This document shows, one piece after another, positions 748 through 28,944 of a stretch of 28,946 bases of DNA. Numbering within the stretch: the first letter of the stretch is position 1; the number at the start of each line of letters is the position of its first letter. The stretch is from the NCBI GenBank assembly GCA_000310025.1, contig FN649742.1:762714-791659 (forward strand), in the 5' to 3' direction. Origin of the DNA: Ectocarpus siliculosus. Taxonomy: Eukaryota > Sar > Phaeophyceae > Ectocarpales > Ectocarpaceae. The notes under the pieces are model-generated. The model was not told the origin of the DNA and did not search any database. It saw nothing but the letters and a program-made list of their open reading frames with translations. The translations under genes and the position numbers were made by a program.

Positions 748-3700
748 CTGCGATGCTCGAGGTCAGCCTTGTTGCCCGCGAGCGCGATAATCACGTTCGG
801 GTCTCCTCTACGCTGCAGCTCCTTCACCCACGACTTAGCACCGTTGAAAGACTCCTGAAAGCAGTGTCGGCCAAAATAGAACAAATCAAAGACGTCAACG
901 ACAGAACAAAATGGGGTCGCACAACGGAGAACGAAAACGGGTAGGGAGAATTGAGTAAACAATACTTGTACGCCTTAAACCCTCCTGCAAAAGCTGCATA
1001 CGTGCATGTTGTACTAGGACGCCGATGGGGACTTAACTCAAATGCTGCATCGTACGCTGGTTCATTCCTGCACCCGCAAGCGTCAAATGGTCTCCGCAGC
1101 ACGATCGAGACCACTGTAGGCTCCAGGAGGAGCAAACAAAGTTTCAACCGGCGAGGCTGGTGTTTGCAACTCCATCTACGGCCGACCACGATGTTGCTAT
1201 CCGCCGCTGCGTCTTGCGCGCATGTGTGCTAAGAGAATCATGTTTGGCCCTACCTTCAAATGGCCCAAACTTTCAGAGACAACAAACGCTTGTCATGATG
1301 ACTTGAGGCATATGCCTACTTTACAGCAGTAGTCTTGGGGGTCTTAAATGTCCCAGCAAAACACGATTGGTGATGAGCTGCCAAATAGGCGCAGACGGCT
1401 GTCCAGCAACCCATCCCGCTCAACCCCACACACGTCCATCCAGGTCCAGAAGCGGCATCGATGTCCCACCACCGCGACCATCAGGCTCTACGCGCTAACC
1501 GTTACACTTAAGAACATAGAGAAGGCGCGAGCACCCGTCTGATTTCGTCAATGCCTGGACTCTGCGCGCAACGCATGAGTCCAGTGGCTTCCCTTGCTGC
1601 GTTTCACACCAACTTTCCACGGCAATACAAAAACGCCAACACGGTAAGCACGGCGAAACCGCTATAGCAAATCACTGATAACCGTGCACCGTGCATGTAG
1701 CACTAGTCTACACGCCTCGGGGCAACAACCATCCTCCCTCACGTACTGCAAAACAATCACCTTCCCTTCTCCCAACACCCCTCCCGTCTCTCCCCCAAGA
1801 GGAACAGACGAACCCACAATCAACAAGCTCAGTTGATTGACACCCCTTCCTTCCCCTGTTTTGCTGTGCACTTCCCAAAAACGAGGAACAAGAACTCGTG
1901 CACCACTCCAGGCCACACGCACCCCCATCTGAAACCTTTTAGGTGTCAGCTGCAACTGTACAGGCGCACATCTGTCACACTACAGCATGGTTGTTCCGGG
2001 AAACGAAACTACTAAAACAAAAAAGAGAAGCGTATGCTGAAAGGACAGACCATTTCGCAACAGTCGATCTGTTGTGTTCGAATACTATTGCCTTCTTCGT
2101 AACGTCGTACACCACAGACCATTGGCAGCAACGATCTGTTCAGTTCTGAAACTCTTTTTCTTCGTCACGTCGTACATCACAGACCCTTGACAAGTCGGTT
2201 TGTTATGTTCTACAACTCTCGCTTCTTCGTAACGTCGTACACCACAGACCATTGGCAGCAACAATCTGTTCAGTTCTAAAACTCTTTTCTTCGTCACTTT
2301 GTACACCACAGACCATTGACAGTCCATCTGTTGTGTTCTAAAACTATTGTCAGGTTCGTAACGTAATACACCACAGGCCATTGACAGTCGATCTGTTGTG
2401 TCCTAAAACTATTGTCATGTTCGTAACGCCATACACCACTGACCATTGACAGTTAGTCGATCTGTTCAGTTCTAAAACTCTTGCCTTGTTCGTAACGTCG
2501 TACACCACGATCGCCGCCGCCGCCCCCCGGTAGTACATGGGTGCGAGGCTACGGTATCGCTCCTGCCCAGCGGTATCCCAAATCTCGAATTTTACAGTCG
2601 CGTCATCGAGCTGCACCTTTTGTGTCAGGAACGCGGCTGCCCACAAGAACAAGGTCGACAGCGTGGGACACAAAAAAGGCGGTGGCAGGGGGAGCATTGG
2701 GCAGGTTACTGTTACATGGTTTCAACTCCTTGCCATCTGTAGCGACAGAGTCAGCGCGAGCAGAACCGCATGGCAGAGACGTCCATCACAAACCTCGCTG
2801 CATTGCCAGTCCTGCCGTAGCCGAGAGGTGAGCAAGCATGGCCTGCTAAACTTAGCGCCAAAGGATCTATGGTCCAGATATTCACACTACCACACCAGCA
2901 GCTGGTAGCTGGCAGCTGCAGCAGCAGCAGCAGGTCAGCACGTAGTAGACCCCACCACTTTCAAGAAAAGACGTATAAGCATAGAGCACTCGCCAACACA
3001 ACTGCCATCCGTAAGAGAACGCCATTACTTGCGGCCATCGCTTGGAGTACACAGCACGACGGGAGAAATGGAACCAAAAACCAGGTCCACAACAAACTTT
3101 GCCCTTCGGGCATGCTCCACAAGGCCAGCAGTATCCCTACGAAGTGTGCACGTGCACCCACGCGTCCATGGGAAAGGTAGATGTGTGGCCGGGTCTTTCG
3201 AAAACGGGGAATACAATCAAATCCATTACCACCAGCTCGTCGCTCCTAACGATACCTCAAACCCTCCGGTAGATAAATCTTCTTTCCAAAGCGATATGTC
3301 CATTGCTACGACGGCGACAATATTAAAACGACGGCGACAATATTGTTCGCCGGTGAATACAAGGGGGGTGCCGCTGGCAACAATCGTGCTTGAGCTGTGT
3401 GTTCATTTGCTCCCTCAAAAAGTACTCTTAAAATACGAACCCAGATTGTAGTCGAACATACTTGTAGGCATCAGTGTTCCGCTTCATAGGAGGGCAATGT
3501 ACATAATGTCCAATGTCCATCAATGGTGCGGTACTCCATGCGGTTTTCCGTGTAGTATGGCGTGTCGCAAGACGGGTGCTGGCCAATTCCAACGAGCAGC
3601 GCCTCATATAGGCCCAATTGACCTGACGCAACCACTCTATGAACAACTCTATCGACTTCCCCATTAATACTCATGGACAGCAGTAAACTAGCGACGATAG

Positions 3701-4521
3701 CAGTAGTTGCGGTCTGGCAATCTGCAGAAAAGGGGGTACGAGGACCTCGTGCAATGCAAAAGCCGGACGTGTGCGGGGTGCTTACCTCAATGTTATCTGA
3801 CTTTGATCTTTAGGGCCGCGATGGAGATGTGCAGAACTTCTCTAAGACAAAAATAAAAAAGGATGGTGCCACACAGCAGTTGCAAACCCCTTGATCTATT
3901 GAAAAAAACACAAACAATCCGTGTGTGACTGAAAGACACCCGTGTTGGCCCATCTACACCGAGCTCAAAATGACTACAGTTCGACCCTAAGCAGGAAGCG
4001 AGTGTGAAATGTTAATGTTACCGTCGTACAGTACTCAAAAGTAGCTTGCCTAATGTGTTCACTTCTGCCGTCCGCTAATCTAGTGAATGAGTTCGACAGG
4101 CCGAGTTCCAGGCGTCGCAAAGCCCAAATTTAGGACTCTCAGCAAAATCCTCTCGCTTTCGCTTTCGCCTGTCCTCGGGTGGAACCGCCGCCACACTGTT
4201 TTCAAGTGATCTGCTGTTCCCCCGCGTTTAAAAAATAAGAGACATGAAAGAACAAACCCTGTTTATGCCCCGAACCTCCTTCCATCCATATGCCCACACC
4301 TTGGGGTGCTATTCTACTGAGCGGTCTTCTGGGGGGGCAGCGTTTGCGACCTCTTCTGCAGACAAACACGACAGACACCTCCCTCCCCCCTTACCTCCGA
4401 TCGTGGGTTCTTGGTACTCGAAGAACTCGTCCCTCACAAAACGCACAACGAGACATGACTTCCCCACCGCCGTGTCCCCGAGCAACACCAGCTTGAAGTG
4501 GCACACTCTCCCCGAACTCAT
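748..4521 (-). CDS. Rab5-family small GTPase, three 5' exons, 3' end missing
   Basis: A Rab5-type GTPase acts as a switch on early endosomes, recruiting tethers and PI3-kinase when GTP-bound. The exons on the minus strand are 4521-4395, 2636-2485 and 854-748. Joined, they give about 128 residues. Visible motifs are the P-loop GDTAVGKS (residues 15-22), switch I with EPTIGAAF (38-45), [20 protein letters not shown] (G3/switch II), [17 protein letters not shown] and the G4 motif NKAD. Residue spacing matches Rab5 exactly at both junctions: exon 1 ends in phase 1, so G|CC gives Ala in IGAAFLTQ, and exon 2 ends in phase 0. The start ATG at 4521 has an in-frame TAG seven codons upstream. Intron 1 is GT-AG (1758 nt), intron 2 is GC-AG (1630 nt) and exon 3 is followed by GTGAGG. 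The G5 motif and the prenylation cysteines are not in the window. Assignment to Rab5 rather than Rab21 or Rab22 rests on the EPTIGAAF and VKELQ segments. Confidence 0.95.
2047..2510 (-). repeat. About 65-bp tandem repeats derived from the Rab5 exon 2/intron 2 border
   Basis: Units begin (plus-strand reading) with TTCGTAACG or TTCGTCAC at 2096, 2161, 2226, 2290, 2355 and 2420. The seventh start, at 2489, is the genuine 3' end of Rab5 exon 2. A partial unit lies at about 2047-2095. On the minus strand each unit reads through a copy of the VVYDVTNK-coding end, the donor position, then an AGTTTTAGAAC...CAATGGTCTGTG body. The period is not a multiple of three, so the copies cannot extend the exon in frame. 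The units at 2096 and 2226 are more alike than neighbours are, pointing to a later 130-bp duplication. Confidence 0.9.
2483..2484 (-). other. GC splice donor of Rab5 intron 2
   Basis: The minus strand reads AACAAG|GCAAGAG at the end of exon 2, and the acceptor is TTTCAG|GAGTC at 854. Splicing there gives [15 protein letters not shown], the correct Rab5 spacing. Using the nearby GT of GTTACG would remove four conserved residues (VTNK). The AAG|GCAAG context is the usual strong match of GC-AG introns. Confidence 0.85.
3307..3345. repeat. Two-copy 20-bp tandem repeat
   Basis: The motif ACGACGGCGACAATATT occurs twice in succession, separated by AAA, inside Rab5 intron 1. It is a simple duplication with no function visible. 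Confidence 0.7.
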
Positions 4522-7360
4522 GTCGCCTGCTGCTGCTGGCTATGGATGGCGGCGGCAGCCCTTCTCTTGTTCCTGTTGGCACGGAACTAATTATTCCGCC
4601 CTGCGGCACTGCGGCTGCGTTTGGCAGGAGGTAATCGTCCTTCACCGACCGATGATAGCTGCAAGAACGCGCCAGGGATTCCTGAGCTGTATGCAGGGCC
4701 GTCAAGCAGTACGCCGCCTCGGTGTTGGCTACCTCCTTTTTAATTTCCGGCTTCGCAGACCGAATAAGCGGTCGCCTGCTGTGTTCCTTGTTTGGCAGCG
4801 TTTCTCTCGTGTTGGCGCTGCAGAGGTGGGTTCGGGCATTTTCCGGGTCAAGACGTCAAGACACACTCACACGCGCGCCCAACACCGTCGTCGTACCAGC
4901 TGCAAAAACATTGCACGCCACACGGGTTTGATAATAATAAATCGCGCCATCAGAGCCAGGGCAGAGCTACTGCCTCTGCTCTGCTTGTCCTAGTCAAACT
5001 TCAAACAGCGTGCTCTTCGCCTTGCGCGGCAGCAGTTACGTGGCACCGTCGTTGACGAGACAGAAAAGAGGGCTTGAGGTTGACTTTCGAAACAATCAAC
5101 ATCGGCTTCTCCCAAGCGGAGGGATTTGGAAAAGCAGAGGGGATAGAGTTCGACAGAACGTGGATCGCTCAGACGTCTTCACAAGAACACCTGCATGGAG
5201 CCGAGCAAGCCTGCGCTCCCGGGGTGTCACGGGCGCGTTTGAGGACCGTGGTCACCAGGTGGGAACGGCACCAAACGAAACGTGCACGACTGCTTGCTGA
5301 ATCGTTCAGTGCTTGATGACGGGGAAACTCAGCGGGCTGGGCGCATTGAACCTCTCTTGCAAATAAGGCAGCTACGGGCAGAAGCACGACGGAGCTCATC
5401 GGTGTGACCTACGAGGGGTTATGAGACCCTGGGAAGCTCTCTCTAGAGTAAACGGGAGGCGGGCACCGCACTCGTTCCTGCTCTCTCCTCTGGTGTGCTG
5501 CTGCTGTCGCCGACTCGTTTAGGTTTCCAACGGTACGATCCAATACGGCCTGTACCAAGTTACCGACGCACGACTGTTACCTGTTTAGAACACATACCCA
5601 CCTGTTGTGCCACACTCACTTTCAATGCAGGACAGCTGGTCGGCGAAGAGGGCACACAACAACAACCGCGTCCCTTGACTACTCCAACCACAGCACAGGC
5701 ACTTACACGGAGGGGGGGTCGTGGGGAGAAAATGGGGGTATGCGGGGGGCACAAAATGTAGAAGAGAAGAGCGGGGCACCAGCAATCACTCATCAATGCG
5801 GTGAGACTACGAGCGCTACAGCTACTGCTGTGACGACTGCTTTTGCTGTCATAGTGATAGGCCCACAGACCACACCCGAGACAGAAAGTTGGGATCTCAT
5901 GTATGCGTTATACGCAAGTCAGGGGGAGCGCAATATTGGTTTCGTTAACCGCAACCTTTCGCACACACCTACATTACTGCATGGCCAAGGATCAACTTGG
6001 ATGAAACTGTCAGCAGCACGCCCCGGACGACGACGAACCGTAACATCGGCTACCGCCCCCTTTCGTGAGGGCTTTGCTAATCCACAACCCCGAGCATTGG
6101 CAGACCTCAACTTCATATGGGCCAGGGGAACTCAACCCACCCAATCCACCGAGCAGGGCGAAGCGGTGACTTGTGTGTTGTCAGGCGTTTCCTCCGTAAG
6201 CCGGCCATCTTGAACCGCCGCGACATCGACAAAATGACGTGCTTGCACTGGTGAGTAAGCCCCAACACAGGTCGACAGCGGTCCACAGTAGTACAGCGGT
6301 AGTATCATAGCGGCGCCGTTTCCACATCGATTCGAGATTGCGGAACAGGGACTACTTTACTCCTGTCTACGCAAGTCTATGCATGCTCTACAACAACCAG
6401 TTAGTGCAGAAGTGTTTCGGAATCACAGACATTCCAGGAACGATTGTTTGTATTCTTGAGTGCACCCTACCTCCTGTAGATAGGCGTGGGTGTACAAGTA
6501 CCCCAAAAGCAAAATTCATTTGGTGCAGGTAAGTAAATGTACTATATATGTAGTTCCCAAAGCAATGGTGCGTGCGTTCATGGGTAGTTTTGACTTGCTT
6601 GGCGATTGCTACAACCCTTATATTCGTGTTCTGGATCCGAACGGGCGAGAACTTTTCGATTTTTCGATGGAGAATAAATGTACACGGAATCAGCGAAGAA
6701 CTCTATTGCTGTATGCACTCCTTGAGAAATATCGAGTACGTACATAATTGGGGTGCTTTACAATTCGTTTTCTTTTTCCGGTACAAAGAGGAGCATTTAT
6801 AATAGGGTTCGAAGCTTGTTCTCTGTGGCAATAATAGCGTCTGGCGTGAACGACGTTTATTTGTTTTTTGCAGTCTTCGTATCACGAGGTGGTTGGATGT
6901 AGGCTAAATATCTTTTTTAGAATTATACAGCATTCCTTTGAACCGAGGAACTCTATGGTCTAGGTGGTCTCCTATGTGTACTGAAGTAAATTGCAGACAA
7001 ACCCTCCCCGACAATATCATGACCAAACTTCAGTCGCATCGATCCGCAGGGATCAGCGGTGCGGGATGTACCTTTAATATTAATATTACTCTTTGACGAA
7101 CAAACGTGCAACGATTTAGAAAAATATCTCATGGACAGCGGCATATAAGCAATCCAACGCCGGCATCGTTGCCTACAACCTAGATATAGGCTTAACGGGT
7201 GAACGAACGCTGAAGGACACGTCTGCATTCTGAGCCGTCTAAACTGACCGGCCTACATCACAGTAGGAAACAGTATACTAACCTCGTTAAACACACACGT
7301 CGTCAGCTAAAGTTATTGACGATAGAAGATAGTTTGGTTTTACTGCCCGTGGCCTTTTTA
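4522..7360. other. Region between Rab5 and the ankyrin gene, no supported gene
   Basis: This stretch holds the Rab5 5' flank and presumably its promoter, though no recognisable core motif is seen. A 202-codon open frame on the plus strand (5605-6213) is threonine- and arginine-rich and shows no domain. An AT-richer island runs from about 6330 to 7330; inside it a plus-strand frame (about 6560-6747) reads somewhat like protein, with LDPNGRELFDF, but has no clear splice sites and no family I recognise. Upstream exons of the ankyrin gene could lie here. Confidence 0.4.
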
Positions 7361-9888
7361 ATGCACGGTTCGAAACTCCTCTCCGCCAGTGGTAACCTTC
7401 GTCGACACATAGATATAGTTGTAGAGCGAAAGTACTATCAAATGCATGTCAGTTCACAAAGAAATTGTGTCTTGTCTACCTGCTGCGTGTTATTTGCTCG
7501 ACATACGCATTCCGCCTCGGGTCGTCGACATCTGGCATGGACGTGTTTGCTCGGGGCGGGGGTGGCGAGCAGGGCTTCGCAGCTAGGCCAAATCGATGTC
7601 ATTCAGGAGTTGATAGCGGCGGATGCAATCGAATTGAACGCGCAGGACGGCAACGGGTGGACCCCTCTCATGCACGCCTGCGCCCGCGGGTGAGTGGGTA
7701 GCAGTCGCGGTTGTACGGCGACCACTCTTCTAGTGCATGGACTGAGTACACTGAAGGATCCTGTAGCTTCCCCAAGCACGGCAAAGCTCACAATATGTCG
7801 ATTGAAGCTTCCCTATTTGGTTTGCAAAAACGAACCACAGTCAACGCGTAGCTGCATGCTTCTTGCACTCGCAGGTTGGGTCGCACGTGGCTTGTACGGC
7901 GATACCAATTCAGTAAGGAAAACACGTACAACCAAGCGCTTCCTGGCGCCAAACAAGATGGGAGGTGGGGGGGGGGTCCCTTGAAGAGCGACGCCCCACG
8001 GCTATCTAAAGATGTTCTCAGTATGTGAGGTCGTCATCTTGGCAGAGGGTAAAGCTCGTTCAGGGGACCCGCGGGTAAACGAGTGGTCTAAATGGATGTG
8101 TTAATTAGCATGTTGACAGGAAGTAAACGCAGTCCGTGCTCGCCATTGCCAACCGCTGGTGGTTGTCCGACTTTGTACGAAACAATCAGGCACAGGTCAG
8201 TCGTAGGGGCATTGCTGACCGCCGGAGCTAGCGTGGATATCGAGAGTCACGACGGGCGAACCGCTCTGCATCGAGCAGCGACTTGGAAACGACTGGGGCC
8301 CCTCGACCAAGTACGTTGCAAACAACAAGCATCGGAGAAAACAACTTAAGAGAGTGCTGACGTGAACAAACCCGTACCGAAATCGGGGCTGCGAAAGTAG
8401 GACTGCGAAGAAAAGGCAAAACCGGCGATCCTTCGGGCTCGTGGGCATCATTGTGGAGCCTACGCTCCCCCTTTACACTCCATGCTCTGACTGACTGTTC
8501 CGGCCGATCTGAGACAGATCGTTCGGTAGTCACCCCCATTCATGGCCACTCTCTTGGTTCCAAAACATGCTTGTTTTCTCCAGGCAAACGTACGTAATTG
8601 GAGCGCTGACAGCTCGACCAGCAGTACAACGGCAATCGACAAGGTCTCGCACTTGACTAGGACAATCGGAAGAAACCACATGTAGTGTCCGCTCTTTGTT
8701 GCTTGAAAAAATTACTTCTTCAGCTCATCGAAGCTGGTGCAGACGTGCGGCACGGGGCGCGAAACAAGTGGACCCCCCTCCACTGTGCAGCGGCAGCTGG
8801 AGATGCACACGCCTGCTCAATTCTGGTGGGGGCGGGAGCCGACGTGGACGCACAGGTGCAAGAACTCAAGCACAAAAACGACGTTTGTGCCAAGGGACAC
8901 TTCGGGTAGTTATTTTTTCCAGGTTGTGTTGCATTTCCAGTTGTCACCCGCCCTTGTTCATGCTGCGCACGTGACACTGCGTCTGAGTGACTAGTTCTCA
9001 CTGTCCCCTCGTCGCAGGTGTGAGGTGTTTCCTCACATCCCGTAGAACAAAACCTCACTCCCTTCAAACGATCGTAATCGCCCACGCACGCCCGATGGGA
9101 GCCAAGTTCAGCGCAGAGAAGATAAGGTCATGGGGCAGGCAGGGTCTGCCAGAGATTGCCCCAAACAGAAGTCAATGAAACGAGTGCCTGCCTTTCCATG
9201 CTGTCGCGCGCTGCCGATCATCTTCCCTCTGTTCTACTACTTTCTCGCTCATCGATACAAGGACATCTTCGGCCTCAAAGCCGTCGATGTGGTTGCCGAT
9301 TTTACCACGACAGACCTGGTGAAGAGAGCTCTCACCCAAGCACCGCAGGGTACCCCGCCGCGATCGTCAAGAGCTTTGTCGACGAGACTTTCGTCGACGC
9401 CGTCGTCGAGCTCGAACGCCCCGGTTGCTGCTGCCGCTCCTACCGAAGCTGCTGCCGCTGCTGCTGCAGCGGTTGCTGCCGGAGCGGGCGCCGCCATCGG
9501 CAAGCGGCCGTTCGAATCTTTGGGCGCTGGAGTGGACCTACGAAGTAGCGCGACGGCGACGGTGGGTGACGGGGCCACCACCGGGCTTGACGTAAGGCGT
9601 GGTAGCTGGAGCAGACCGGTGGGGCTCCAGCCTCTTGCAAGGGGCACCAACCACAACGGTGGTGGCAGCGATAGCTTGCACAGCTGCGGCTCTGTGAAGC
9701 CAAGCAGCGGCACCAAAAGACTATCGAGACACCAGGTGGCGGTGGTGGGGTTGGAGGCGCAAACGAGGCCCGAGCTCTTCGGAAATGGCGGAGAAGTCGG
9801 CGGTTCGGGACACGAAAGGAGCGTGGTGGGAGGGCCGAGCATTGCAGATAGGAGTAGCCCAAGAGACGAGAACGTTAGAGTGTCGTAG
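7361..9888 (+). CDS. Ankyrin-repeat protein, four exons, 5' end uncertain
   Basis: Ankyrin repeats are protein-binding scaffolds; the partner is unknown. Exons: up to 7689, 8190-8310, 8724-8855 and 9262-9888 (stop TAG 9886-9888). All junctions are GT-AG and phase-matched (2, 0, 0). The joined protein shows consecutive 33-residue repeats: a first partial one (QLGQIDVIQELIA), GWTPLMHACARGHRSVVGAL, GRTALHRAATWKRLGPLDQL, KWTPLHCAAAAGDAHACSIL, and a degenerate half repeat GLKAVDVVADF. A tail of about 180 residues follows, rich in Ser, Ala and Gly, with an alanine run (encoded about 9421-9500) and no domain. The first exon's frame is open back to ATG 7361, but its N-terminal residues do not look like ankyrin sequence. 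The exon may instead start after the AG at 7572 or at 7582, with earlier exons upstream. The tail could contain an unrecognised intron. Confidence 0.85.
9421..9500 (+). repeat. GCN triplet-rich tract coding for poly-alanine
   Basis: The tract is dominated by GCT/GCC/GCA/GCG codons and lies in the last exon of the ankyrin gene, giving runs of up to eight alanines after TEA. Mixed synonymous codons argue for selection at protein level, or an old expansion, rather than a fresh pure repeat. Confidence 0.7.
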
Positions 9889-28905: not shown

Positions 28906-28920
28906 GAGGAGCGGGAAGAG

Positions 28921-28944
28921 GGGGGGGGGGGGGGGGGGGGGGGG
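28921..28944. repeat. Poly-G run at the right contig end
   Basis: Twenty-four consecutive G, then TC. It mirrors the 16-G run at position 1. Confidence 0.95.

Follow-up and report, generated by a model that had tools for sequence, protein, structure and literature searches.

Tandem copies of a splice border form a minisatellite in intron 2 of a Rab5 gene of Ectocarpus siliculosus

When the end of an exon and the start of the following intron are duplicated next to each other, decoy donors are placed beside the authentic one, raising the question of how such copies arise, whether the host gene is affected by them, and whether selection works against the decoys. This question is posed by a stretch of 28,946 nucleotides of Ectocarpus siliculosus (assembly GCA_000310025.1, contig FN649742.1, positions 762,714 to 791,659), hereafter the window, in which the first ~440 nt of intron 2 of a Rab5 gene are occupied by a tandem array. 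The gene lies on the minus strand of the window (Table 1), in a contig of 5.8 Mb and an assembly of 189 Mb.

The joined exon residues align with Rab-5B (2hei) at 206 bits and with zero gaps, including the exon 2/3 joint (VTNK-ESF against ITNQ-ETF). Among the best 60 of 218 matches to chains of solved structure, the top 16 are Rab-5A, 5B or 5C (198–206 bits), which identifies the gene as Rab5 among the Rabs with solved structures; RABF2b (184), YPT51 (161), Rab-22A/31 (147–153) and Rab1/11 (127–135 bits) come next, and two chains named Rab5a score only ~150 bits. Since the ungapped Rab-5B match spans the junction, AAG|GCAAGA, a donor of the GC type that is absent from the preliminary description of this DNA, is likely the donor of exon 2, with intron 2 delimited as in Table 1. 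The calculated pairing of this donor with U1 snRNA amounts to -4.8 kcal/mol, against -10.1 and -11.6 kcal/mol for the other two donors of the gene. A motif search for the C-terminal Rab5 exons in the 7 kb downstream did not find them.

Table 1. Exons and intron 2 of the Rab5 gene and units of the array (window positions).
Feature	Positions	Strand	Details	Basis
Rab5 exon 1, coding part (MSSGRVCHF...EPTIG)	4395..4521	-	donor GAG|GTAAGG	translation; Rab5 match
Rab5 exon 2 (AAFLTQKV...VVYDVTNK)	2485..2636	-	probable donor AAG|GCAAGA, GC at 2484-2483	translation; ungapped Rab-5B match over exon 2/3 joint
Rab5 intron 2	855..2484	-	1630 nt, GC-AG	deduced from exon reading frames and ungapped protein match
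Rab5 exon 3 (ESFNGAKSW...DLEHR)	748..854	-	acceptor TTTCAG|, donor CAG|GTGAGG	translation; protein match
Unit E, authentic border	2440..2508	-	69 nt: 24 exon nt and 45 intron nt	unit cutting, alignment
Copy U1	2375..2439	-	65 nt; donor position ATG|ACAATA, core lost; quoted donor AACATGACAAT	
Copy U2	2310..2374	-	65 nt; CTG|ACAATA, core lost; 91% identical to U1; first read-through in-frame stop at 2352	
Copy U3	2246..2309	-	64 nt; donor core deleted (AAGAAAAGAG); 91% identical to U5	
Copy U4	2181..2245	-	65 nt; head 20/20 identical to exon; donor AAGCGAGAG, core lost	
Copy U5	2116..2180	-	65 nt; donor core deleted (AAGAAAAAGAG)	
Copy U6, outermost	2047..2115	-	69 nt; head 20/20 identical; retains AAG|GCAATA	

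At 2060-2508, TRF reports a 65-nt repeat in 6.9 copies as well as a higher period of 194 nt, and a repeat finder gives start spacings of 65, 65, 64, 65, 65 and 69 nt. Division of the minus strand at each GTG[G/A]TGTA yields seven units, namely the authentic border (E) and the copies U1-U6, each of which (64-69 nt) opens with the last 24 exon nt or a copy of them (VVYDVTNK) and continues with ~40-45 intron nt. E and the six copies together occupy window 2508-2047, U1-U6 (2439-2047) directly following E. The preliminary description had counted six complete copies and a partial one: the six copies stand, whereas the seventh element is the authentic border and not a partial copy. Its account of ~65-bp units that hold a VVYDVTN-like coding end, the donor position and the intron start agrees with TRF, the repeat finder and the unit alignment, and the donors that it quoted for U1 (AACATGACAAT), U5 (AAGAAAAAGAG) and the outermost U6 (AAG|GCAAT) are all correct.

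The core of the authentic donor, AG|GC, is retained in one of the six copies, U6, which lies in the reading frame of the exon, and is missing in the other five. In calculated U1 snRNA pairing, U6 (-3.0 kcal/mol) falls between E and the remaining copies (+1.0 to -0.9 kcal/mol). Translation continued past exon 2 would encounter five in-frame stops in the array, the first of them in U2, so that the copies are not coding and a coding role of the array was rejected. Where the outermost copy ends (window 2049-2037, minus strand), the sequence TCTGTCCTTTCAG resembles an acceptor site. The GT microhomology at the array ends (2508-2507 and 2046-2045), being of 2 nt, is too short to count.

The array derives from the exon 2/intron 2 border, an origin supported by the fact that the unit head is conserved Rab5 coding sequence, that the repeat was found at a single locus only and that its exon part aligns far above chance. 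The exon end scores 43 against the copies, a value reached by none of 1000 dinucleotide shuffles (shuffle maximum 29), and the 20-nt exon-derived head shows a mean identity of 92.5% between E and the copies, with 100% for U4 and U6. A search of the 189-Mb assembly with the whole array, of a kind that can miss weak matches, gave no match outside the Rab5 locus, and a search with the 20-nt head (up to two mismatches), which reached six of the seven units and whose reversed control pattern matched once, found nothing off-locus. In addition, further diverged copies were sought in the rest of intron 2, intron 1 and the in-window part of intron 3, none being above chance (p 0.28-0.89; 0.41 and 0.53 for the rest of intron 2). 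The border origin proposed in the preliminary description is thus upheld, with the repeat found at one locus only instead of at many unrelated ones.

More than one round of duplication made the array, as had been read from a nested 130-bp periodicity, because a 67-nt stretch recurs at a distance of 130 nt with 97% identity, as detected by the repeat finder, and because U1 pairs with U2 and U3 with U5. Identity between units ranges from 72 to 91%, these two pairs being the closest, and both are also grouped in computed unit trees. The topologies used for the counts of changes given below were set by hand, and the computed trees match one of them in the main pairs (support 0.75-0.98). Slippage driven by hairpins was rejected, the single-strand DNA folds of four unit sequences being no better than those of shuffles (z -0.38 to 1.86).

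The explanation that best accommodates the array, with a probability of roughly 0.85, is that the array arose as a minisatellite at a splice border and is carried as an intronic passenger, its donors decaying neutrally or slightly aided by selection. A local duplication would have copied ~65 nt straddling the end of exon 2 and the GC donor of intron 2, and later rounds, including one of a ~130-nt stretch, would have led to the six intronic copies, probably in this order. The authentic, most upstream donor appears to be still spliced, as protein conservation suggests, since this donor yields an intact Rab5 joint; the copies would consequently remain intronic passengers, adding ~390 nt to intron 2 and drifting.

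The variation along the unit bears on how far this decay has been neutral. Besides the well-kept head, identity between E and the copies is 78.6% in the tail and 63% in the nine donor columns. Head divergence is 0.075 between E and the copies and 0.133 among the copies themselves, which is the expectation if E alone is constrained. Parsimony changes per column amount to 0.35 in the head, 0.64-0.66 in the tail and 1.44-1.56 in the donor block, which is the most variable of 65 nine-column windows (p 0.001-0.003 with gaps counted, 0.016-0.030 with substitutions only). The p value varies with alignment and gap counting from 0.001 to 0.093 overall; five other alignments give 0.011-0.093, and in some of them three or eight windows are equally variable (up to 8 of 58). 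As the exon part is kept somewhat better than the tail (p ~0.09) and the donor block worse, the neutrality of the copies, which we infer, is not fully clean.

The preliminary description had suggested selection against the decoys. According to this alternative, working donors in the copies would have competed with the weak GC donor, variants with a broken core would have spread, and the array would be a record of purged competitors. Such an account seems doubtful, even though the donor block does change most and the weak U1 pairing of the authentic donor implies that competition could matter. The five other alignments give the donor block p values of up to 0.093. Of four independent lineages, about three have lost the AG|GC core, an outcome with a neutral probability of 0.07-0.28 at an assumed 0.08-0.15 changes per site, so the core losses by themselves fit neutral decay. 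Moreover, slippage in the purine run could account for the deletions in U3 and U5, and two of the border copies found elsewhere in the genome (see below) have kept their signals, AG|GTGAGC in a Rab6-like gene and GCAG in a chaperonin gene. The evidence for selection is therefore suggestive only.

It is improbable that the whole of intron 2 was born by tandem duplication of coding sequence, as in the Rogers model, with the array as its remnant. This mechanism is published, as far as the available parts of PMC2891723 and PMC3443670 describe it, and in a Rab5-like paralogue (C11) the coding sequence continues uninterrupted across the position of intron 2. Nevertheless, the likeness of the unit tail to exon 3 is not clear (p 0.64 in local and 0.05-0.15 in anchored comparisons). 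One frame of the U5 tail resembles the SFRT of the C11 paralogue; considered as a remnant of exon 3, this likeness is not clearly above chance and is taken as a coincidence, also because in that part U5 falls short of E by 2 nt. Moreover, the units carry a border that already has an intron on one side, and a Rab gene on C33 is interrupted by an intron at this very position and in identical phase (VTGQ|GTAAGA), of which the 324 nt seen contain no border copy. Given this same-site intron without border copies and the tail without a clear exon 3 match, the Rab5 array is regarded as a later event within a pre-existing intron. That the copies are functional, as alternative donors or as a regulatory platform controlling Rab5 splicing, is very improbable, since the well-kept heads and the in-frame GC donor of U6 are outweighed by the absence of the donor core from five of six copies, by the five in-frame stops that the use of U6 would add, and by a head/tail difference that is weak (p 0.09) and partly explained by a constrained E alone.

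Border copies adjoining their own exon, on the donor or the acceptor side, were also found in other genes of the assembly. The labels Rab6-like, Rab1/8-like and Rab2/4-like used for the surveyed genes are presumptive, having been assigned by eye. In the Rab6-like gene (C24:966085-966640), the exon end YDITNRA with its donor AG|GTGAGA recurs on the donor side of its own intron in two clear diverged copies, AG|GTGAGC at 966360 (intact) and AG|GAAAGG at 966486, none of 500 mononucleotide shuffles being as good; one of the two keeps AG|GT. A third, partial border copy is perhaps visible by eye in this intron. In a Rab gene at C5:1633739-1633900, the acceptor border TTTGCAG|GCGGGGCAAGAG, with the exon start AGQESFRSI, has three copies upstream in the intron. 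In a chaperonin (Cpn60_TCP1) gene at C8:2702673-2702819, GCAG and ~47 exon nt are copied 213 nt upstream in the intron (51 nt, 96%); the intron sequence around the two shows hardly any likeness (equalled by 15 of 1000 shuffles), and the copy looks recent.

In total, copies of a border in the adjoining intron accompany 4 of 36 distinct exon matches (22 of the Ras family, 14 of chaperonins), a lower bound because matches may stop short of exon ends. By family, this means three of 22 Ras-family exons, Rab5 included, and one of 14 chaperonin exons, or 3/35 without the Rab5 case that prompted the survey. If every exon match is taken to have two borders (72 or 70 in all), which may not hold for terminal exons, 4-6% of borders are copied. 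The Ras-family sample consisted of 26 loci, six earlier ones and the best 20 of 65 matches, which reduce to 22 distinct exons (four were duplicated), several of them from one gene; that of chaperonins comprised the best 14 of 59 matches. Two repeat pairs were dropped from the count, one in an exon (L061; 30 nt, 80%, E 0.029) for being weak and GT-rich, and one near L051 for being intron-only. A further chaperonin match (C38:126891-127037) lies inside an unusually long open frame of 6959 residues, perhaps reflecting a tract of repeats or an assembly gap.

Applied to random positions, the identical test places 4.6% of them (837 of 18,000) within a copy of a local repeat, a background that rests on 15 of 16 random 9-kb pieces (one being all N), with a repeat in the central 400 nt of 12 of 45 sub-pieces. 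In this comparison, which is rough in that the survey is small and made of best-scoring rather than random matches, borders appear to be copied about as often as any other position, and no border-seeking mechanism is needed, as the two rates are similar. It is a tentative, rather unlikely generalization that splice borders are commonly copied into the introns of this genome and that copies able to rival a weak authentic site are eliminated. If true, such arrays would be natural competition experiments on splice-site choice and a steady source of longer introns outside chordates.

A mirage in the Adh3 gene of amphioxus was reportedly described by Canestro et al. in 2002. In the text available from PMC3087553, the amphioxus mirages are minisatellite-like tandem duplications of either intron-exon boundary, present in Adh3 and in the globin genes BflGb6 and BflGb9; many of the copies, not all, hold splice signals, and regular splicing is suggested by the authors to be undisturbed. 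On this partial account, the Rab5 array fits a kind already described, if rarely. Its unit holds the exon end and the intron start, and its copies adjoin the authentic border in the intron. As with the mirages, whose units measure 10-160 bp, tandem copies of a splice border lie in an intron and stem from its donor or its acceptor end, some with splice signals and some without, several genes per genome are concerned, and the relations between units point to rounds of turnover (PMC3087553). Length instability between haplotypes is a further mark of mirages; the Rab5 array is seen in one assembly. However, the lineage is distant and the probable authentic donor of the Rab5 array is GC; moreover, the Rab5 copies differ from each other by 9-28%, whereas the units of BflGb6 are 81-100% identical, and against the many signal-bearing copies of mirages stand one of six with AG|GC in the Rab5 array and one of two with AG|GT in the Rab6-like gene.

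Tandem-duplication intron gain, as presented in the parts of PMC3443670 and PMC2891723 available and reportedly treated in PMC4974935 too, is also a local duplication with splice motifs beside coding sequence, but there an exonic piece is duplicated into a new intron, whereas in Rab5 an existing border was copied. Likewise, the internal tandem repeats at exon-intron boundaries in human segmental duplications (PMC2812944, in part) are boundary minisatellite expansions that may change gene structure; unlike the Rab5 array, known from DNA alone, they were recognized in transcripts of recent human paralogues and may give rise to new introns. Within the partially covered literature that was searched, which is weak evidence of absence, border-spanning repeats were not found under a name of their own outside amphioxus. 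Four cases among the few exons surveyed in a genome so remote from amphioxus suggest that local duplication may generate border copies quite generally. Border-spanning minisatellites set near-identical splice sites side by side, making the rule by which the spliceosome chooses among them testable, and they illustrate one route of intron growth.

Some other features were observed around the locus. Near the ends of the window, poly-G runs of 16 G (1-16) and 25 G (28920-28944) are present, and an open frame at 7316-7693 contains ankyrin-like sequence (VIQELIAADAIELNAQDGNGWTPLMHACARG), named by eye. At least 150 EsV-1-7 repeats occur in the assembly and point to a brown alga, a group in which the EsV-1-7 family is expanded.
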